A stretch of 64,000 bases of DNA from Lytechinus variegatus (Eukaryota; Echinodermata; Echinoidea; Temnopleuroida; Toxopneustidae), in assembly GCF_018143015.1 (NCBI RefSeq), contig NC_054756.1:23111440-23175439 (forward strand), in the 5' to 3' direction. The translations under genes and the position numbers were made by a program. Below the pieces are notes generated by a model. The model was not told the origin of the DNA. It saw only the letters and a program-made list of their open reading frames with translations, and did no database searches. Numbering within the stretch: the stretch's first letter is position 1; the number at the start of each line of letters is the position of its first letter. Positions 3,478-55,005 of this stretch are shown piece after piece.

Positions 3478-6400
3478 CTATAGATCGGTAAAAATCATTG
3501 AAATATTATTTGTTTTGACAAGGCTCCACACTAACTTTTTTTTCTTGGTGGCCGGATCGGTCCACCAAAATAATCAATTTCATATTCTTGGTGGCCCGAA
3601 AAGCAAATATGGTGGCCCTAAAACAATAGAAAACATTACAATTTATCAAAACTTTGGTAGCCTGACTGGGCCAACTGCAGGCCTTTACAAAATTTTGGTG
3701 GCCCGCCTCTCATTTTTGGTTGCCCCCGGCCACTGCTAATGTCGAGCCTTGGTTATGAGTTATCTTACTGGACTAAGAAATAGAGTGGTTTGTCCACACA
3801 TGAACATTATTAGGATAAATGTTACAACCAATAAATCATTCAATGTCAAAGTTTATGTTGAGAAGTAGTAACTAAAGGACGATTGGCACAAAACTGAAAG
3901 TATTATCATGTTGCCACCCTTCCAAGAAAATATCTATGTGAGAAATAATCTGAAATGATTTTATTCTTTAAAAACATAATTCATAAAATGTACTTTATAG
4001 AAAAGGAGGCCTTTTTCACCCTTCAAGTTCTGCTACTCATTTGTTCTCCTTCCGTTTTGAATTGCTTTTATGTTCTTATTTTATTGTACAATTTGAATTG
4101 CACTACATGTATCATTGTAAATCTGAAAATATTGAAAAAAAGGGAAAATAAATGAGTTTGAGAGAATCGAAGTATATTAATGGCAAAGCAACACCCTATT
4201 CCTCCATAAAGACAGCTTTCCACAATATAGAACAATATAAAACTAGCCCCTTTGCAAACACATTTGCATTAATGGAAACTGCTACACACATACAGAAGAT
4301 CTGATTATCACTTCATTTGACATTTAGTATCTTTTAAAACCTCATATATGCAGTAATTCCAGCTGACAAAGTAGTTTAACTATTCAAAGTGACATATCAG
4401 CCATTACTAAAAAATTCACCTTAATGATTTGCTTAACTTTACTGAAACAAAAGGGGCTCTGCAATACTGTATATGCACATAATGTTTACAATTAACCACA
4501 GTCATTGTGATTTCGAGTAATCTTTGGCTGTGTTTATGCTTCCACTTTTCAGGCCAGAATCAGCGTTTCCAAACGTGATTAGTCCAAAACACGGTTGCGT
4601 CCATGCTTACTTTCATTCAGACGCTGTTTCAAAACGCCGATCGTAAACTCACAAACAAGTGGAATGCCTCTGGCCGTCTCACCTGCATCACGCGGTTCAA
4701 TATAGCAGCAGTGCTGACTTTGAATACTACTCTAACTCGCACAAGATGTTCAGTGATACATGGTTACTCTTATGTCCACTTTTTATGAACGAGACCAATA
4801 AACTTACAGAGATATGATGGTTATTCAACAAAAAACCCCAACATGGCCAAAGTTCAATGACCATACATGACCTTTGACCTTGATCATGTGACCTGAAACT
4901 CGCACAGGATGTTCAGTGATACTTGATTACTCTTATGTACAAGTTTCATGAATAAAATCCATTAACTTTCATAGTTTTGATGGTAATTCAACAGATAAAC
5001 CCAATTCGGCCAAAGTTCATTGACCTTTGACCTTGGTCATGTGACCTGAAACGTGCACAGGATGTTCAGTGATATTTGATTACTCATATGTCCAAGTTTA
5101 ATGAACTAGACTAATAAACTTTCAAAGTTATGATGGTAATTCAACAGATACCCCCGATTTGGCCAAAGTTCATTGACCCTAAATGACCTTTGACCTTAAT
5201 CATGAGACCTGAAACTTGCACAAAATATTCAGTGATGCTTGATTACTATTATGTCCAAGTTTCATGAATCATATCCATAAACTTTCAAAGTTATGATGGG
5301 AATTCAACAGATATCCCCAATTCGGCCAAAGTTCATTGACCCTAAATGACCTTTGACCTTGGTCATGTGACGTGAAACTCATGCAGGATATTCAGTGATA
5401 CTTGATTAACCTTATGTCCAAGTTTCATGAACTAGGTCCATATATTTTCCAAGTTATGATGACATTTCAAAAACTTAACCTCAGGTTAAGATTTCGATGT
5501 TGATTCCTCCAACATGGTCTAAGTTCATTGACCCTAAATGACCTTTGACCTTGGTCATGTGACATGAAACTTTAATAGGATGTTCAGTAATACTTGATTA
5601 ACCTTATGGCCAAGTTTCATGAACTAGGTCCATATACTTTCTAAGTTATGATGTCATTTCAAAAACTTAACCTCAGGTTAAGATTTGATGTTGACGCCGC
5701 CGCCGTCGGAAAAGCGGCGCCTATAGTCTCACTCTGCTTCGCAGGTGAGACAAAAAGTGCGTTTGTAAACGTCGTTTGACCAGAATCAGGCTTTCTGGGG
5801 AAGTATGAACAGAACCACGATCGTAAACGTGTTTAAATGACGTCATTTGGTACATGCTTCCGGTGAGATGAAAATCCGCGGGCAAATACACTCGCATTGC
5901 TCCATGCTATCTCCACGTAGTAACAACACTCGGAAAAAAACTTACGAAAAAAGGCGCGCCCAATTTGACCTCAGTTTTCTTGTGAAGCCAGCTGGAGATC
6001 GTGATTTCGCCTCTGAAAAGTTAAGCATAAACAGCACTCCCAGAACTACATTTACAATCTGCGTTTTGAATCGACGTTTGAAAATGCCGATTCTGTCCTC
6101 GCAATGGAAGCATAAACACACCCTTTGATGACTGCATTTTTTATCCTACCTTCTTCGGAGGCCTTCAAGAGCTCATCGTTTTCGTTAGTCTCTTCCTCCG
6201 TTTTGAGTTCTTCTGCTTTGTTCTCCTCAGATTGCTAAATAAAATTAAATAAAAGTAAATTAAGTAAAACAATATAGAAAATTCCTGAATTGTGTGGGGA
6301 CAGTAATTTTCTGTTATAAAAAGTGGTCTTTCCCGGTTCTGAAATCCTGTAATTCTGTTTCAAAATTGATGTAACATAGAAAACATACACAGCAAAGACA

Positions 6401-21400: not shown

Positions 21401-24400
21401 TGCTGGAATAAAGACCCGACGGAAGTGACCGAATCCGCGCTTATTTTGCTAATTTCTCAACAATTACACAATTTCTTCCAGAATCCTTTGGCACATATTT
21501 TTTATTCATACAAACAGACACTTGGGTGGTCACTATATTAGATTCTGTCAAAAGTCATTTTGAGATCGTTACCAAAACTGGAATTTATCTTTAAGGTAAA
21601 CATTACAAGGAAACAAAATATTAAGAAATGTAAGAGGGTTGTTACCTACCATTGCACATCCTGAGCAGATAATTCTTTCCTGAAGAATAAAAATCAGTCT
21701 GAAATAGAAACATCAATAATTTATATATTCAATCATTGCCAATATATGACATAATCATTAGATTTGACATGCACTAAAAACAGTACGGCAGGGTGAGCAT
21801 GGTATGAACAGGGGACTTTAGATTAAAGGGGAGGGGGTTGTCATCTGTTTTCAATATTAATAATAATAATATTTCCATTTACATAGCACAGTTTATACTA
21901 CATGTACATGTATGTGCATACTCTCAACTGCGCTTTGATACTAATACTTGGTATATTATTACCCCAGCTGTAGCTGAGCTGCCATATTAATAGCCGCTAA
22001 AGCGTTCAAGGAAAAATTCTACCGGGTACCCATTCACCTCGCCTGGGTTGAGTGCAGCACAATGTGGATAAATTTCTTGCCGAAGGATTCGAACCCAGAC
22101 TAGCGAAAGATATACAATGCCACTGAATAATATGAGATGGTAAAGGCATTATCTCACTTTCCCAGGCTTCACAGATGCCTAAGGATAATTAAGCTAGGCC
22201 GGAGAATTTCTTGCTGGTACATCAAGTTTGTAGGGACAGTAATTTTCCGTTTTATTGGTAAATAAAACGGAAATCCATTTGGTTCTTATACTTTTCATTA
22301 CTTTTCAACGGAATTAAGGTCTTTGCTGTGTACATTTTCAGTGACAAACAGAATTTCCAATATCAGATCATGTTGAAATGGAATAAGAGATTTTCAGAAA
22401 AAGAAAAGACAATTTTTAGAAACGGAAATTCACTGTCTCTAAGTTTGTTATCCCCTAAAGATTTCTCTGGTACAGCTATATTCAATGCTTTCCACAAAGT
22501 CTGGTGTCAGCACATAAGACTAATCTCCACATGGAACAGGGATGCCACTAGGTGTCCTCCAAAAATACTGAAACTTATCGCGGGCAGGGACAGTGTCCAG
22601 GATCAGTGAATTGGGGCATTGGCGGCGGAAGCCCCCCAATTTTTTTTTTTTTTTTTGGGGGGGGCAAGTGGCTTCTTACCTTGTTGTGATCGATGACATT
22701 GAAGCCAAGGTTTGAAAAAAACTGACGGTAGTTAGTTGTGTGTTTCTAAAGTAATAGAACGCTAGACTAGTAAAAGCTTCAGTCTCTGTATTTTGGTTCC
22801 TCCGCTGAACCGCGTTGGCTCCACTCACCAATACATAGACTGAAGAGTTGTTGGCCTGTACATAAAGACAATCAGCTAACCCAGTACCAGGGAGCACCGG
22901 CCAGCGAAGCGGGCCGGAGCTCCCTGGGTTACGTACCGTATCAGCATGCAGCTGTAACGTTAGATCCAACATTCGGCAGACCGATTTTTGGATCGTTTTT
23001 GGTACATAAAATGTCACATTATGAAAAAACAACCACATCCAAATTCACGAGAAAATATATAAAATTCAGAAACATCGTACCTTATACAGCAGTTACCGCT
23101 AATTCCTTTCAAATTATGATCAAAACTTAGTCATCCTCGATCCTTTCGTTGGTCATTGTAAGTTGCCATCTTGGATGACGTCATCATCTTTACAGACGTA
23201 TTTACCAGTCGCTATTATATCGCGATTCGTGCCGCTGTTTTGCGCTTGTCTATGTGCGTGCGTTCGGAACTTGTCGCTCGCATTGATTGGCCAGGATATT
23301 GAGGATTCCAATCGAAAAGCCTTGATAAAAGCATAACTCAATGAACGTAGTGGGCAGTGCGCGCGTTTATAAATTATGTATAAAAGCAAATATCTCGGGG
23401 AAATATCTTTCACTCGGTCGATCGACATGCATCGCAATCGGGAGAGTTGTAGGGGGAAAAAAGGAGGACTTTCCGACTTTTTTTTTAGTACACAGAAAAC
23501 AGGAAAAGTCGGAAATACGGAAATAAGACGGACAACAGGGAAAAAGACGGAATTCCGTATATATACGGAAAAGTGGCATCCCTCATGGAAGCTGAGGTCC
23601 AACTGACTTTCAATACTAACCTGGGGACCGTTTCATGAAAGTTGTCAGCACTGACAAGTTGTCTTTCTCCGACAGTTACCATAGTAACAGTCAGAGACCA
23701 GTGCCTTTCAGCCAATCAAAGCTAAGGATTTCACTGAAATTGTCAGCACTGACAATTTAGTCAGTGCTGACAACTTTCATGAAACACCCACCTGTTTCCA
23801 TGTGGCAACCCTGTCTTCCACAAACTGGAAGACATCCTTGCAGACGCTGATGGTCACCGAATCGAAGATATCTGTCAGGAGCAGGAATGGGGTCGCAGGG
23901 GAGCAGAGACCCGCCTCTACAGCCTCGGTGGACAGGTGGACCAGGGACGTGAAGTCACTGCAGCTAGCACCGCTAACCTGCATTGGGACATATATGGCAG
24001 GTTATTGATGTATGCCAGACAGTTATTTTTCACTAAAACTTTAGTATATGTATCTGTTTCTGTTTATGGACAGCGTTTTGCTGGTAAACGCCAAGCTGGG
24101 ATATAACCAATTAATACCTAGGAAACATTTTACGTCTAGGTTAATCAGTCATAATACGATAATCAATTAATGATGATAATAATAAATGGTAATCTGTACA
24201 TACATGTATGTATACATTGCAGATTTTCTATAATGCAAATACTCTACTGCATGTTAAAAAAAGTGTGTAATATTTTATTTCATAAGGAATTAAAGCTACA
24301 ACTGGTTTAAAATGTCCCTGACTCACATATGCCAATTTGGATTCTGGGATGAGTCTGTGGAAAAATATATTTACTTAAAGGAGAATGAAACCATTGGAAC

Positions 24401-38600: not shown

Positions 38601-41600
38601 CTAACAATAGACATAATCCACACAGGAAGAGGAACACTTGGATTAATTGTCTATTCCAGCTTTGGTTAGACCTTGATTTTCCGATTTTTTTTACACACTT
38701 TAGCAATAATACTTAACAACTGGTTATTTTTGCAATGCTTCTATTTTCACAAATTTCATGAGTTAGTGCTCACAAAATTTCAACTTAAGTTTATACAGCA
38801 TTCATAACACTACAAAGGAAATAGTGAGTGAGACACGTCATAGACTCTCTCATTTGCAGGTCACAGAATTGGGCATATTACTGTTGTGTGATAAATAAGC
38901 AGAACTTTAAATTCGCATAACTTTTTTATTTTACATCAGAGTTTGTTGTGCTTGGTTGATTTTGCTCTATTGATTCAATTCAACATATTTCTGGGGTAGA
39001 ATTGACCTTTAATCGGTTAGTAATTTCAGTGTGTTGTACAGCTGAATTGCATGTGCAGGCCACAGCAACAAGTTAGGCTTACGGATGTACAGGGCAATTA
39101 TGTCCAAACTATCAGAATCACAGGAATCTCTAATTTCTGAGAAATTAGAGGTAGATATATGTACAGTGTATCCCAGAAAAAAAAATCGAGATGTATCATA
39201 ACTTAATCACAAATACAATAGACAAATGACCTATCACTGTAAAGCTTAGAATCTCCTCTTTCGTTTGAAATAACATATCATTCTTCATTCCTGCATGAGT
39301 GAGCAAAAACAATGTGAAGAAAAAATACCAAAAAGTTACTTGGCATGCAGTATCTTTGTTTCAAAAAGAAAATAACATTTTTTATAAGTTTATTACTCAT
39401 AAATTTGATACATCAGTTCCAGAAAATGGTCAAGAAATATTGTTTATTTGAAATAAGGCTTTGATTTCAATGATTCAATAAAATGAAGAAGTTTTACAGG
39501 CTAGCATTGAGATATACTTGAATTTCGTTGACGATCAGCCATGTTTTGAGTCTTTTGTTAAATGTGAGATAGCTTCCGTGGGAAACTGGTGAAAACATTG
39601 TTGTTTAATAAAATTATAGAAATACAAGCATTGTTCTGAAGTAACAGAACTTTTTTATTTATTGACCATTTTCCATGATTGAGGTAAATTAAATATTGAA
39701 CTTTCTAGGCATGTGATTTTCTTTTTGAAATTCAGATATCCCCCGCCAAATGACTTTTTGGTATCCTTTGTTTTAATTGTTTTTAATCACTCATTTGTGT
39801 ATGAGGATTAATTTAAGTTATTTCAGATGAAAGAAGAGATTCTAAGCTTTTCGATGATAGGTCATTTGTCTATTAAGTTATGATAAATCATCGCTAAATC
39901 TTGGCTTCATTTTTTATGGGATGGACTGTATATTACACATGTTTTGGATAATCTGGTTTAAAAACTGTTTTGGCTTGGGGAATATTCACTTTATGAAATG
40001 TAGACTTACGCAAATTCACCTATGCATTTATACTATTAAAATCTTATCCTTTAGGTGGCGGTGGTTACTACATTCCGCGAGGGGGTCTCTTTGAGCTAGT
40101 ATCCTGCCCCAACTACCTTGGGGAACTGGTTGAGTGGTTCGGCTGGGCACTGGCTAACTGGTCAGCGGCTGGTCTGGTCTGGTGGCTCTTTGGCTGTTCA
40201 ACCTTCATACCGCGGTCAAGGGACAATCACAGATGGTCAGTAACACTTCCCTGTTTGGTTACATTAGAGCAAGCTTAAAACTGTCACCCAGATAATGAGT
40301 TCTTGGATCTTATCAGTATCTTCATCCTCCAAAAGAAATGATCTTTTGGAGATGACAGAATCTTGGATGTAGTCATGTCAACATCATGTTCATGTATAAG
40401 TGACGATCAGATGACCAAATTTTGGAGCATGTCATGTTCACATCCTTAGAAGATGAGTAGATTTTAGATCACATCTACATCTCATCCTCTGATCATGTCT
40501 TAAAATCTGCGATCTCGTCATCTGGGGGGCGTTTCATGAAAGGACTTGTCGGGCATTTTATCCGACAAGTACCAATTTATCCGACAGTTACCATAGGAAC
40601 AGTGCCTCTCAGCCAATCAGAATCAAGGAAAGATGTCAGATCTGACAACTTGTCGGATGAAAATATTGATGAAACGCTCCCCCGATCTATTGGTTAGCAA
40701 GATATTTACATGTGGATAATTATGTCAACATCTGGGTGGCACTTTTGAGCCTCCATATAGCCTCCATATTACTGGATTGTTCTATGGGGCTTTGGGGTAT
40801 TGAACTTGGGAATCACCGGGTCTCGACTCTCACAGATACTTTCAATAAATTCTGAGCAGTATGCTGCCTCCATATATTTCTTCTATAATCTCTCCAATTC
40901 TTCATAGACAAAACAAAAGGGAATGCAAGAAATCTGATTGGATTCCAGCCCAAAGAAGTAAAGCAGACCTTTATTAGGTTCTTTAGATAAATATGTCAGC
41001 TGGGGTAAAAATGGCAAGAACAGAATCCTATGAAATGAACACTGAAATATTTGTATCAAGGAAAGCTGTCAAAAATGTTAATGAATAACCTCTAGAAGTC
41101 CTTTTCATTTTAATAGAGCCTGAGGCCTTTTTGTCTCACCTGCATAGCAGAGTGAGACTATAGGCGCCGCTTTTCCGACGGCGGCGGCGGCGTCAACATC
41201 AAATCTTAACCTGAGGTTAAGTTTTGAAATGACATCATAACTTAGAAAGTATGTGGACCTAGCTCATGAAACTTGGCCATAAGGTTAATCAAGTATTACT
41301 GAACATCCTATTAGAGTTTCATGTCACATGACCAAGGTCAAAGGTCATTTAGGGTCAATGAACTTAGACCATGTTGGAGGAATCAACATCCAAATCTTAA
41401 CCTGAGGTTAAGTTTTTGAAATGTCATCATAACTTAGAAAATATATGGACCTAGTTCATGAAACTTGGACATGAGGTTAATCAAGTATCACTGAACATCC
41501 TGCATGAGTTTTATGTCACATGACCAAGGTCAAAGGTCATTTAGGGTCAATGAACTTTGGCCAAATTGGGGGTATCTGTTGAATTCCCATCATAACTTTG

Positions 41601-42525
41601 ATAGTTTTTGGATCTGATTCATGAAACTTGGACATAATAGTAATCAAGCATCACTGAACATTTTGTGCAAGTTTCAGGTCTCATGATTAAGGTCAAAGGT
41701 CATTTAGGGTCAATGAACTTTGGCCGAATTGGGGGTATCTGTTGAATTACCATCATAACTTTGAAAGTTTATTGGTCTAGTTCGTTAAACTTGGACATTA
41801 GAGTAATTAAGTATCACTGAACATCCTGTGCGCATTTCAGGTCACATGACCTAGGTCAAAGGTCAATGAACTTTGGCCAAATTTGGTGTATCTGTTGAAT
41901 TACCATCAAAACTTTGAAAGTTTATGGATCTGATTCATGAAACTTGTACATAAGAGTAATCAAGTATCACTGAACATCCTGTTCGAGTTTCAGGTCACAT
42001 GATCAAGGTCAAAGGTCATGTAAGGTCAATGAACTTTGGCCATGTTGGGGTTTTTTGTTGAATAACCATCATATCTCTGTAAATTTATTGGTCTAGTTCA
42101 TGAACATTAGACATAAGAGTAACCATGTATCACTGAACATCTTGTGCGAGTTAGAGTAGTTTTCAAAGTCAGCACTGCTGCTATATTGAACCGCGTGATG
42201 CAGGTGAGACAGCCAGAGGCATTCCACTTGTTTAAAATATTCAGGTTAATGTGTTTTTTCTTTTTGTTGTTTGTATCCATTTCAATGTAAAGCTCTCTGG
42301 TACAGAATAGTACTCGACAAATTAAAAGCCAGATCAAGATACATTTTATAGATTCCTTGTATGATTTAGTTCTTAAGATATTGAACAGATAAACATCTGG
42401 ATTCAATAAACATTATATGTGATGCTTATATATGCAACTTTTTTTTTATGTTTCCCTACAGGTACAAGAAGAAATTCAAGGAGTACCCGCCCAACAGAAA
42501 AGCCTTGATTCCTTTCATCTACTAG
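29638..42525 (+). CDS. SRD5A1: 3-oxo-5-alpha-steroid 4-dehydrogenase (steroid 5-alpha-reductase)
   Basis: NADPH-dependent reductase of delta-4,5 3-ketosteroids in the ER membrane. Eight exons, all phases matching: 29638-29661, 34051-34299, 35003-35095, 35863-35996, 36708-36800, 38467-38561, 40055-40235, 42462-42525; 310 residues. The first codes only MDSNLAAE. Residues 9-55 hold the first membrane span and the EPATYGKHED motif; IAHYFHR (143-149) contains the conserved His-Tyr; DPRFIIG, FIINRWAD and YIPRGGLFE...NYLGELVEWFGWALANWS follow. The C-terminus KKFKEYPPNRKALIPFIY matches vertebrate SRD5A1/2. The length exceeds the usual ~255-260 mainly through an acidic linker (about 60-100). Exon 3 is weakly conserved: Asp112 aligns where the family usually has Glu (WFLQELPS), and it is the least certain exon. 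Pro-orthologue of SRD5A1/SRD5A2 is likely; which is closer was not tested. Confidence 0.93.
30067..31717. mobile_element. element with GGGCTCGACA ends and TTGCCCG words, interrupted
   Basis: Starts AGGGCTCGACAAACCCGCTT and ends with TTGCTTGCCCGACAGGGCAA..TGTAGAGGCCT. Spaced GGGCAAG/TTGCCCG words lie near both ends. A hAT-like MITE is inserted at 30491-31433. A short reading frame at 31507-31722 (EKEMPRPAPVNQVQPGQKKKK) looks compositionally protein-like, but I recognise no family. Confidence 0.45.
30491..31433. mobile_element. hAT-like MITE with an 8-bp duplication and a large polypyrimidine tract
   Basis: Ends CAGGGTGACCAGACGTCCCG and the complement of AAATCTGGTCACACTG. Flanks GCCAGGAC (30483-30490) and GGCAGGAC (31434-31441) match in 7 of 8 positions. 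CAG...CTG ends with 8-bp duplications are typical of hAT elements. The interior (about 30620-31380) is almost entirely C/T on the plus strand; the 169-aa Leu/Phe/Ser ORF there is an artefact. Confidence 0.75.
32005..32955 (+). mobile_element. truncated LINE (CR1/L2-like reverse transcriptase), sense in SRD5A intron 1
   Basis: Plus-strand frames show NPKAFWRYTHSKLNTSCRSG, LNEFFATTFTDED, YKTAGPDGIYACFFKA, NYRPVSLTSVPCKILESLI, VIYLDFQKAFDSFPHLRLL, KAWITDFLQGRQQRVKV and VRSGVPQGT, i.e. RT blocks up to just before the catalytic FADD. Frame changes occur near 32215, 32490 and 32670. The endonuclease and the 3' half of the RT are absent. Sequence style is that of the CR1/L2/Rex group. Confidence 0.85.
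33379..33511. mobile_element. 133-bp MITE with GGGGAGATC ends and TA borders
   Basis: TA-GGGGAGATCAGGGTTAGT at the left; the complement of TAACCCCGATCTCCCC-TA at the right. TA on both borders suggests a Tc1/mariner-type element. SRD5A intron 1. Confidence 0.65.
33672..33957 (-). mobile_element. tRNA-derived SINE copy in SRD5A intron 1
   Basis: Same family as 2022-2293. On the minus strand the head reads GTGGCCCAGAGGATTAG with B-box-like GGGTTCCAATCCC. The body has GTTGAGCGCAGCACAATG on the plus strand. It lies antisense to SRD5A and ends about 90 bp before exon 2. The 33787 reading frame fuses SINE sequence to the true exon and is not the gene start. Confidence 0.75.
36154..36417. mobile_element. 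palindromic MITE of the GGCCCCGTCTTACAAAG type
   Basis: Inverted ends GGCCCCGTCTTACAAAG and its complement, with arms GATTGATCCGATCAATCGTA / TTGGTCGGATCAATCATAAC. Flanks are CTG and TTG. SRD5A intron 4. Confidence 0.75.
36801..38466. other. SRD5A intron 5, mostly unremarkable
   Basis: AT-rich intron. The only structure seen is a 32-bp tandem duplication at about 37416-37479 (CTGACATAAAGTCTGGTGTG in each unit). Confidence 0.6.
38820..39015. mobile_element. right-half remnant of a family C TTAA MITE
   Basis: Resembles the right half of 58374-58980: AATAGTGAGTGAG, CTCTCTCATTTG, CATAACTTTTTTATTTTACAT, CTCTATTGATTCAA and a terminal GAATTGACCTTTAA. The left half is missing. SRD5A intron 6. Confidence 0.6.
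39162..39930. mobile_element. palindromic mariner-like MITE (TACAGTSYATCCCA ends)
   Basis: Left TACAGTGTATCCCAGAAAAA and right complement TACAGTCCATCCCATAAAAA. Arms of over 100 bp share ATAGACAAATGACCTATCA and AAAGCTTAGAATCTC. TA borders and CAGT starts fit Tc1/mariner. SRD5A intron 6, ending about 125 bp before exon 7. Confidence 0.75.
40525..40681. mobile_element. MITE of the TTTCATGAAAGGACTTGTC family, copy 3
   Basis: Left end GGGGGCGTTTCATGAAAGGA after CTG; right end ...GATGAAACGCTCCCCC. Core AGTTACCATAGGAACAGTGC and AGCCAATCAG as in 2769-2924 and 23624-23791. SRD5A intron 7. Confidence 0.75.
41134..42235. mobile_element. DR1-bearing tandem-unit element, copy 2, in SRD5A intron 7
   Basis: Same family as 4654-5755 in the opposite orientation: TGTCTCACCTGCATAGCAGA at the left, GGCGCCGCTTTTCCGACGGC, then tandem units with AAGGTCAAAGGTCAT at about 41334, 41526 and 41690, and further copies to about 42010. 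Ends GCAGGTGAGACAGCCAGAGG and CATTCCACTTGTT. Confidence 0.8.
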
Positions 42526-44724: not shown

Positions 44725-44901
44725 GGGGCCGTTTCATAAAGCTGTTTGTATGTTAAGAGTGACTTTAAGAACAAATGGTGATCCTATCTTGTGGTAAATG
44801 ATATTCACCTTTAAATGTTCATTGGTAATTACTTAACGCATAAGAAAGATTCACCAGTCGTTCTTAAAGTCGCTCTTAGCTTTACAGTTTTATGTAACAT
44901 C
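44725..44901. mobile_element. MITE with GCCGTTTCATAAAGC end
   Basis: GGGGCCGTTTCATAAAGCTG, then TTAAGAGTGACTTTAAGAAC, mirrored by TCGTTCTTAAAGTCGCTCTT and a diverged right end. Flanks CTG and CAG. A copy is at 48144-48297. Confidence 0.65.
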
Positions 44902-47015: not shown

Positions 47016-50000
47016 TCACGTAAGTCCTGCTAAAATTTTCTCTCTCTCCTCTGGACCTGGAAGCACCGGTATGATTCCGTCTTTCCTTCTCTGTTTCATA
47101 ATTTTGCCCTGAAAAGAATTTAAAAGTGCAAAAATTTAAATCAGCATAAGTAAAGCAAGTGATTTTTCCCCGGGGGTTAAACATCATTTCTTGTTACTGC
47201 AATTGTTCATGTTTTAGTTTGAAGAATTGGGATTTGGTTTGGTTTGGATTGCATTTCAGAGAAGTTTTTCACATGTGATAATACCATTGATCACCAAAAC
47301 AGAAAATGAAAAGGTTCTGGTTTCATAAAATGATTTCTCATTCTGTATTGGAAGCATGTAAATCAGATTGCCTCCCCTGGCTCCGACACCTAATGTTACA
47401 TTACTAAAATCAGAACTTAAGTAGAGTAAAAAGACAAAACCATTTTGAGGAGCCACATAAAGTGTATAGGGAAAAATTTCTAGAAAGATGTGAGCAAGCA
47501 ACATAAGCGAGCAAAAAAAATATAACTTTGTGACAAATTGTTACAAAATATTAAGAAAAAGTATCTTTCACAAATTTTGTCCACAGCTTTTTTTTTCTAC
47601 TCCTTTTTCTTTTTGGTCACGTTAAAACAAAACAAAATATGGGGGAGGTGCATGCCCCCTTCCTCTAAAATGCTACATGTATCAATGGTACTATGAACAG
47701 CTCAAAAACTTGTGAGATTAATCCCAAAACAGGGTTCAAGTGGTGCTCTAACATTCAGTGGTTTCCCATATACAATGCATTTTAGAGATCCACTTTACAA
47801 CTTTGGTCTCATCAGGTCCAACATGTACACCAGAGCTATGGCATAAGATGAACTCTGATTCTTTGTAGATTTTGGTCAAATCATCACTAATATTTTTTCT
47901 CTTACATCTGTACTTTTCTGATTTTACTATTAACTTGGCATCAGCATGAACTTCTCCTTCAAGCCCTTACCCAAAAGTTCTTGCAATTCTTATAGTTGGC
48001 AAAGTATCCTTTACATCTCTCACGGTCAAAGTTATAATCATGAAGGCACTGGTACGATGCGTTTGCTTCCTGAAAAAAAAGGGAAATAGAAAAGATCAAT
48101 GATATTTCTCTGCTAAAGAACAAACAAAATTTCTACAATACTGGGGGCAGTTTCATAAAGCTGATCTTAAGAGTGACTTTAAGAACGACTGGTGAACCCT
48201 TCTTACGCACTGAACTATTGCCAATTCAATATACCATTTACCACAAGAAAGGATCACCAGTCGTTAAAAAGTGGCTCTTAACTTACAAACAGATCACAAA
48301 ATGCACATAGATCTAGATCAAACTAGTCCAAGTCTTAACAGCTCGGCTCACCTTACTCACTGACTTAATTCAAACAGAGACCGAAGTTCTAACACGATCT
48401 GTACAGGGACTCAATGGCCATTATACAAATAATGCATGCAGCCGACTGAGCTGAGTGCGTTAGTGGAAATGCACAGCACGCGAGGTTTCTTTAGATAGGT
48501 GCTGCACTGTGCACCAGCCACTGGCTGCGAGTGCCCAGTGTGCACCATCTGAAGAAACAGAGCTCTCTCTCTGCATTTACTTTTATGCACGACAGAGCAA
48601 GTGCATTATCTCTGTTATAATAAAATAGCGACACAGCTACAAATTCTTAAAAAGTTAGGCCTACAGTAGTTTTGTTGGACTTCTCCCAGGACTTCTACTG
48701 CACTGGCCTACTTGAGTTGAGCGTGCACAATGTCAATTTTCGTTGCACACCTTTCCTTTTGCACTGCCGAGCATGCACAAAAAAAGTTGGATGTCATGTG
48801 ATGCATATTGGCCAAACGCGATGCTTTAAAGGGGAATGAAACCTTTGGAACAAATAGGCTTGTGTAGAAACAGAAAAATCAAAGAATAAGAATAAAGAAA
48901 GTTTGAGAAAAATCGGACAAATAATGAGAAAGTTATGAGCATTTGAATATTGCAATCACTATTGCTATGGAGATCCTCCTATTGGCAATGCGACAAGGAT
49001 GTGTGATGTCACTGATGAACAACTTTACCTTTGGTGGACTATAAAATACCCTCAAAATGTCTCTGCTTTTTCTTATGATGATACAAACTCTTTATCCATG
49101 ATGTATCCTTAAAAAATATGTATTACATGCCCTCATGTAGAAAGAACACATGATCTATGGATAGATGTGATAAAAGAGGCAATTCAAGGGAAATATATAC
49201 TAAAGTAATGGGGAGAGTTGTTCACAAGTGACATCATACATCTATGTCGCATTGCAAATTTGCTATCTCCATAGCATTAGTGATCGCAATATTCAAATGC
49301 TCATAACTTTCTCATTATTTGTCCGATTTTTCTCAAACTTTTGTTGATCTGTTTCTTTGATTTTTCTGTTTTCACACAAGCTATCTTGTTCCAATGGTTT
49401 CATTCTCCTTTAAATCGAAGCGAATACACCTAATTCTATTTGATAAATTACTACTAAGTTCGGATAAACCAGGGAGTGGGAGTTGCACGACACTCGACAG
49501 CAGAAGTAAGTCACTGTTTTTCCTTCCCCGTTTTGGTGCATTTCAGGCCAAAACAGAATAGAATATCTTTAATTTTATTTTGGTCCAGTTCTTTTCTTAT
49601 CATTTTATGAAATAAAGACAAAATTCGTGGGGGGATTTTGCATTGTTAATCCCCAAAGCCAAAGGCCAAACGACAACGTTCATCACTTCATGGCAGTAGC
49701 ATAATCGGCATCGCGGGTCGTCTGCGTACGACTACGAGGTCGAGGAGAAATTTTTTTTAAAATGATAAAAAACTCCTCGAATCAGACCGCTGCCAGCAGG
49801 CAAAGCCACACACATGACACACAGCACAGGCATGACAATTGACAGGTTCCATTTTATTATCATTCATTATTTTTTCAAATTCAAAGTCACCACTGATTAA
49901 AATTAAATATCCAGTCAGTGTCCATCATTGTCAAATTTTAAAAAACTGACAAACTTACAGTCAAACAGGGATTACTGTCTCCATCAGTCCATCGCCTTTG

Positions 50001-54096: not shown

Positions 54097-55005
54097 TTTG
54101 TCTCACCTGTGAAGCAGAGTGAGACTGCAGGTGCTGCTTTTCCGACTGCGGCGGCGTCAACACCAAATCTTAACCTAAAGTTAAGTTTTTGAAATGACAG
54201 CATAACTTAGAAAGTATATCACTAGTTTATGAAATGTGGCCATAAGGTTAGTCAAGTATTCCTGCCTGAGTTTTGAGTCGAATGACCAAGGTCAAAGGTC
54301 ATTTAGGGTCAATGAACTTTGGCCAAATTGGGGGTTTTTGTTGAATTACCATCATATTCATAACTTTAAAAATTTATGGATCTGATTCATGAAACTTGGA
54401 CATAAGAGTACCCTGGTAATCAAGTACCATTACACATCCTGTGCAAATTTCAGGTCACATGATCAAGGTCAAAGTTCATTTAAGGTCAATGAACTTTGGC
54501 CAATTTGGGGGTATTTGTTGAATTACCATCATAACTTTGAAAGTTTATTGGTCTAGTTCATAAACCTTGGACATAAGAGTAATCAAGTATCACTGAACAT
54601 CCTGTGTGCATTTCAGGTCACATGTCCAAGGTCAAAGGTCAATGAACTTTGGCCAAGTTTGGGGGTATTTGTTGAAGTACCATCATAACTTTGAAAGTTT
54701 ATTGGTCTAGTTCATAAACCTTGGACATAAGAGTAATCAAGTATTACTGAACATCCTGTGCGAGTTTCAGGTCGCATGACCTTTCAAAGTTTATAGTGTA
54801 TAAAATGTGGATGTAGGGGTTATCAAGTATCACTGACAAGTTTTAGGTCAAACAATCAAGGTCGAATGTCAATGAACGTAGTATTGTATCATTATGTATG
54901 AATGGTGTGTTTTGTGAATAATTATTTTACAGTAGCTTTCAAAGTCAGCACTGCTGAGTTTTTCATGTGATGCAGGTGAGACTGCCAGAGGCATTCCACT
55001 TGTTC
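54097..55005. mobile_element. DR1-bearing tandem-unit element, copy 3 (shorter)
   Basis: TGTCTCACCTGTGAAGCAGA at the left and GATGCAGGTGAGACTGCCAG + CATTCCACTTGTT at the right. Tandem units carry AAGGTCAAAGGTCAT (about 54288), AAGGTCAAAGTTCAT (about 54467) and AAGGTCAAAGGTCAA (about 54628). The right part is more degenerate than in copies 1 and 2. Confidence 0.78.

Follow-up and report, generated by a model that had tools for sequence, protein, structure and literature searches.

A transposon end at an exon border of sea-urchin THOC1 may act as a ready-made splice donor

How can a conserved gene stay open when a transposon lies exactly on one of its splice donors? The question arises from THOC1 of the sea urchin Lytechinus variegatus, within a stretch of 64,000 nucleotides (contig NC_054756.1, positions 23,111,440 to 23,175,439), here called the window, whose own numbering is used throughout. 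An original prediction made from the letters alone had placed a MITE precisely on the border between a THOC1 exon and the following intron, with a GTTAGT donor left behind a second CAG, and this was confirmed base for base. The features concerned, in the direction of transcription, are:

Positions 23792..23977, minus strand: THOC1 exon of 186 nt with a 3' end in phase 0, encoding VSGASC...VATWKQ; its 5' border is presumably set by the AG before GTTAGC.
Positions 23792..23794, minus strand: first CAG, the last codon of the exon and the 5' copy of the CWG target.
Positions 23624..23791, minus strand: MITE of 168 nt, GTGGGTGTTTCATG...CATGAAACGGTCCC, with three differences (1.8%) from the consensus of the 29 other best copies.
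Positions 23786..23791, minus strand: GTGGGT, the family-consensus terminus, which reads as a splice donor after CAG.
Positions 23760..23785, minus strand: first inverted repeat arm, 26 nt, perfect.
Positions 23630..23655, minus strand: second inverted repeat arm, partner of the first.
Positions 23644..23650, minus strand: TGCTGAC, which we take to resemble a branch point, its A 24 nt before the AG and inside the inverted repeat stem.
Positions 23621..23623, minus strand: second CAG, which reads as an acceptor together with the CCC of the MITE end.
Positions 23615..23620, minus strand: GTTAGT, the presumed original donor, now behind the MITE.
Positions 21650..21698, minus strand: next THOC1 exon, 49 nt, TDFYSSGKNYLLRMCN, with its acceptor directly before 21698.

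The host gene is well identified, as the 23792..23977 exon alone matches THOC1 in the PDB (7znk_A/7apk_A, E 1.8e-10) and the Pfam family efThoc1 (37.1 bits, cut-off 27), and, joined to the next two exons, gives an ungapped alignment of 110 residues with human THOC1 (E 1.9e-40). The last base of this exon, which closes with ...ACATGGAAACAG on the minus strand, is 23792, and reading on into the MITE gives V-G-V-S and a stop, which reproduces the earlier claim that the open frame depends on the GT borne by the element. Because read-through stops and the joined exons match the human protein ungapped, the frame as read from the DNA requires a junction directly after 23792, and a productive mRNA would need the GT at the tip of the MITE. 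Neither a second copy of the exon nor an empty haplotype was found in the assembly, where the exon is present once, so that no second intact THOC1 gene is at hand.

The element itself has the properties of a MITE, being short and non-coding, with perfect arms of 26 nt and many near-identical copies in the genome. Within the window, the arm occurs twice when up to three mismatches are allowed, a number reached by none of 100 shuffled sequences. A family search of the whole genome (869.6 Mb) gave 1417 candidates, 40 of which were scored as matches, at 95-100% identity. Read together with their flanks, the 30 best copies define the family ends as GTGGGTGTTTCATG at one side and, read inwards, GGGACCGTTTCATG at the other; GTGGGT is the exact start in 25 of these 30 and hence the consensus end. 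Genome-wide, CWG followed exactly by GTGGGTGTTTCATRAA occurs 4,390 times, and the reversed-pattern control 0 times. Compared with the consensus of the other 29 best copies, the THOC1 element differs at internal sites only. The supposition that a point change in the MITE end had made the donor has thus to be abandoned, and we infer a revised mechanism in which the mutated donor is replaced by a ready-made one. A target copy of five letters, CAGGT, which would make the GT host-derived, was ruled out, as elsewhere in the family CWG directly precedes GTGGGT while the far CWG is followed by letters other than GT.

The family has relatives, among them a sister family sharing the same end but having a different interior. 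The window contains three related elements (at about 40525-40684, 44725-44897 and 48144-48294): one represents a third sister family, and the other two belong to the second family, with their GT-side end damaged or lost. The earlier remark that other members in the window have no GT at this position is true of these three, but all of them are sister-family members, and in two the GT-side end is damaged or missing, so that the remark does not hold for the family to which the THOC1 element belongs. Elsewhere in the genome, near-identical MITE copies recur with their flanks about every 1.3 kb (L036-L039), as if the MITE had been captured in a tandem array, and two copies (L021 and L050) seem to share their flanks although the MITE points in opposite directions, as in a paralogous site where the element was inverted or separately inserted. 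The window also holds a different repeat, whose units resemble TTATGTCCAAGTTTCATGAA; it forms one block at 4943-5623 (plus strand) and an oppositely oriented one at 41464-41943 (minus strand), and occurs again at 54395 (minus strand).

What kind of transposon leaves CAG on both sides? At the THOC1 locus, the duplicated CAG agrees with the 3-bp target duplication originally proposed, and across the family 22 of the 30 best copies, a set not selected by its flanks, have CWG at either end. However, the centre letters of the two triplets agree in 14 of these 22 copies and differ in 8, which is not clearly above the even split of independent sides (binomial calculated by hand, about 0.14, one-sided), and a plain 3-bp duplication is for this reason a weaker reading than the single THOC1 locus suggests; the triplet present before insertion may have been CAG or CTG. 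The ratio of CWG to CSG before the family end is 4,390:532 (8.3), versus 1,782:577 (3.1) in the window. A target overhang with an A/T mismatch repaired either way, to which mPing offers a parallel, would explain both the CWG flanks and the unequal centre letters. The 8 copies with differing letters look as if the mismatch had been repaired independently on each side.

As the best explanation of these properties, the MITE appears to be a non-autonomous DNA transposon resembling NuwaI of the PHIS superfamily, whose target site duplication is CWG, confirmed there by empty sites (Han et al. 2015, PMC4482050). The two share an animal host, CWG as the apparent target and, at one end, an inverted repeat starting with GGG (here GGGACC). 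They differ in that NuwaI inverted repeats, as described in that paper, usually start with GGG whereas the other end of the sea-urchin element starts with GTGGGT, in that echinoderms are not among the hosts named in its account of the group, and in that the CWG centre letters are often unequal in the sea-urchin copies. Furthermore, the autonomous partner of NuwaI encodes a DDE transposase and a Myb/SANT protein (PMC4482050), while no such partner was found for the sea-urchin MITE and no transposase was tied to its ends: DDE_Tnp_4 genes are present in the genome (the best 150 of 458 candidates were scored), and the one match checked near a MITE end showed no second end within 2.4 kb and no link.

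How, then, might the THOC1 transcript be spliced? Predicted pairing with U1 is strongest for the MITE donor (CAGGUGGGU, -11.1 kcal/mol), weaker for the displaced donor (CAGGUUAGU, -7.9) and weakest for the end that the reverse orientation would offer (-5.0), in which the exon end would read CAG|GGGACC. Among the 256 CAGGTNNNN donors, GTGGGT ranks 10 and GTTAGT 21 by a human matrix. The MITE RNA is predicted to fold into a long stem (z -10.8 alone and -8.5 in context) that buries TGCTGAC and leaves the GT at its foot, with weak pairing of the exon end with GTGG in the context fold. From the element, its flanking CAGs, the family end and the reading frame, all seen in the sequence, and from the predicted U1 pairing, we infer the use of the MITE donor in RNA and the following order of events. 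A NuwaI-like MITE would have inserted at the CWG that closes the THOC1 exon, immediately ahead of GTTAGT, with its GTGGGT end facing the exon. With the insertion a ready donor would have arrived; since GTGGGT is the normal terminus of the family, no later mutation would be required, and THOC1 probably survived without one. Productive splicing would then use the donor CAG|GTGGGT (at 23791) together with the acceptor in front of 21698; the MITE would form the first 168 nt of an intron of 2,093 nt, and the old GTTAGT would be a bypassed decoy. Taken as a whole, an insertion at the exon-end CWG whose own GTGGGT end serves as the working donor is the best explanation at hand, and one we consider reasonably probable.

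Other routes through the same letters have to be weighed against it. The MITE may be removed as an intron of its own, 171 nt from GTGGGT to CCCCAG, rebuilding CAG|GTTAGT, which would then remove the remaining 1,922 nt; as read from the DNA, this and direct splicing yield the identical, correct THOC1 mRNA. All signals for two steps are there, namely the donor, TGCTGAC at a distance of 24 nt from the AG, CCCCAG, and GTTAGT behind it, and the juxtaposed AG|GT has the form of recursive-splicing ratchet points, as described in PMC8605326. However, TGCTGAC sits within a stem of 27 bp, which disfavours removal of the MITE as a separate intron and makes this route unlikely; as the predicted stem buries TGCTGAC and leaves the GT at its foot, direct use of the donor at 23791 is favoured. 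The stem cuts both ways, as it adjoins the MITE donor and could hinder it. Alternatively, the old donor may be used wholly or in part. The exon would then be longer by 171 nt and the protein would stop after V-G-V-S, so that GTTAGT used alone would truncate THOC1, and the allele would be weak or its output lowered. GTTAGT after CAG is a fair donor by its rank, but its predicted U1 pairing is the weaker of the two, and the gene is conserved and single copy; this reading is improbable. Least credible by far is an assembly error at the exon border, as no sign of one was found, neither the element nor the flanking CAGs nor the exon is damaged, and the family has many copies.

Nor is an insertion of this kind an extraordinary event. 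CWG sites number about 24 million genome-wide, as extrapolated from the single window, and the genome may be taken to hold 150,000-250,000 introns, 30-40% of them ending in CAG. From these general intron figures and the 4,390 ends, CAG|GT donors would by chance alone have received roughly 8 to 18 insertions, counting both orientations and before selection, and one surviving sense case is therefore expected rather than astonishing.

Is the THOC1 copy then one visible member of a working introner family, with exonic copies elsewhere being spliced out exactly and new introns made? The architecture would allow it. Because GTGGGT is the ordinary family end, any sense insertion at CAG would supply a donor and a possible branch point, and the second CAG would complete an acceptor; this is the introner layout, with the GT inside the element and the AG of CAG outside. 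By pattern matching, the layout CAG|GT...CAG is found in 383 copies (368 and 15 longer ones), and exact ends run into the thousands. Against this stands a sample of 82 copies that were selected for CWG at either end and include 69 distinct by their left flank, 42 of these with CAG/CAG: among the 69, and with Pfam queries covering 19 ORFs other than those of THOC1, coding sequence recognised by Pfam or the PDB adjoins only the THOC1 copy, and ORFs spanning the junction number 29 in sense versus 20 in antisense, of which two and one, respectively, are those of THOC1 itself. For exon-interrupting copies beyond THOC1, 19 ORFs were submitted to Pfam, namely 9 sense junction ORFs out of the 27 not belonging to THOC1 and 10 of the 69 left-flank ORFs (among the longest, with THOC1, L003 and L052 excluded), and none scored over the cut-off. 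Matches below it were YrhK (E 0.021) and a zf-PHD-like domain (0.02) for junction ORFs, and Fan1_SAP (0.076), EGF_3 (0.025) and SR-25 (0.0025; 17.9 bits versus 40) for left flanks; the ORF matching SR-25 had no PDB match up to E 0.1, and in one copy (L041) a stretch downstream of the MITE that appeared protein-like by eye gave none in Pfam.

Donor-like sites likewise show no sense excess, with 9 in sense and 17 in antisense, raw counts uncorrected for the frequency of intact ends of either kind and thus a weak negative, for an introner family as for use of the MITE donor at THOC1. The nine sense copies, which have CAG|GTNAGT on their right, consist of the THOC1 element, four copies with a further MITE end behind them (L095, L110, L112 and L113, the last two near-identical) and four in which inspection of the letters alone revealed no sign of an exon (L094, L109, L111 and L114). 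In the four copies preceding another end, sister-family MITEs stand head to tail and share one CAG, the GT end following the neighbour's CAG. The introner-like behaviour originally suggested accordingly holds for the architecture but is not accompanied by a second exonic or exon-border copy in the sample, and a family already working as introners is doubtful. With slightly less reserve, though still as a speculation that we rate as rather unlikely, we hypothesize that this very abundant MITE clade, for which no fewer than 4,390 intact ends were counted, may be a latent introner. Next to CAG its terminus would by default be a strong donor and, together with the second CAG, make up a whole intron, so that copies inserted in sense at a CAG, within an exon or on a donor, would be silently spliced and could seed introns in a deuterostome lineage.

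A transposon could thus land on a splice donor, even in a conserved gene, and be tolerated from the outset, its own end being a donor. If RNA confirms this at THOC1, the clade would offer a naturally occurring test case for the conditions under which introner-like ends give rise to a burst of introners, or fail to, in an animal with many introns.

Among known systems, the closest are introners that arose from DNA transposons (Gozashti et al. 2022, PMC9860276; PMC12403724). As portrayed there, they resemble the THOC1 element in having terminal inverted repeats and a copy of the target on either flank, in that the element brings one splice site and the flanking copy the other, and in an mRNA that in principle stays unchanged after insertion (PMC9860276). 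Introners are, however, defined as families of at least five sequence-similar introns (PMC12403724), whereas here a single case at an exon border, THOC1, was found in 69 distinct copies with partly searched flanks, in an existing rather than a new intron and as read from the DNA. In the 2022 survey, only two groups among animals and land plants, both animals, had introners (PMC9860276), and the words urchin and echinoderm are absent from its main text. In the open-access literature searched, we found no report of introners in echinoderms and, among the papers listed for these subjects, none that mentions NuwaI and introners together; the one mention of sea urchins in an introner review is a reference on snRNA.

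The locus is also reminiscent of stwintrons as characterised in PMC12403724, since a complete intron lies at the donor of another and two consecutive splicing steps are possible. By definition, though, the internal intron of a stwintron interrupts a splicing element of the external one, which in the [D1,2] type is the donor, divided between G1 and U2. The MITE instead lies directly before G1, between the last G of the exon and the G1 of GTTAGT; the donor hexamer is uninterrupted, so that the locus does not fit the definition, and one-step splicing would give the correct mRNA as well. With the ratchet points of recursive splicing described in PMC8605326, the locus shares the juxtaposed acceptor and donor, here CCCCAG|GTTAGT, but this candidate site would be transposon-made and lies 171 nt into an intron of 2.1 kb. 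A transposon that carries a splice site is an already known class, and the THOC1 element adds a further instance to it.
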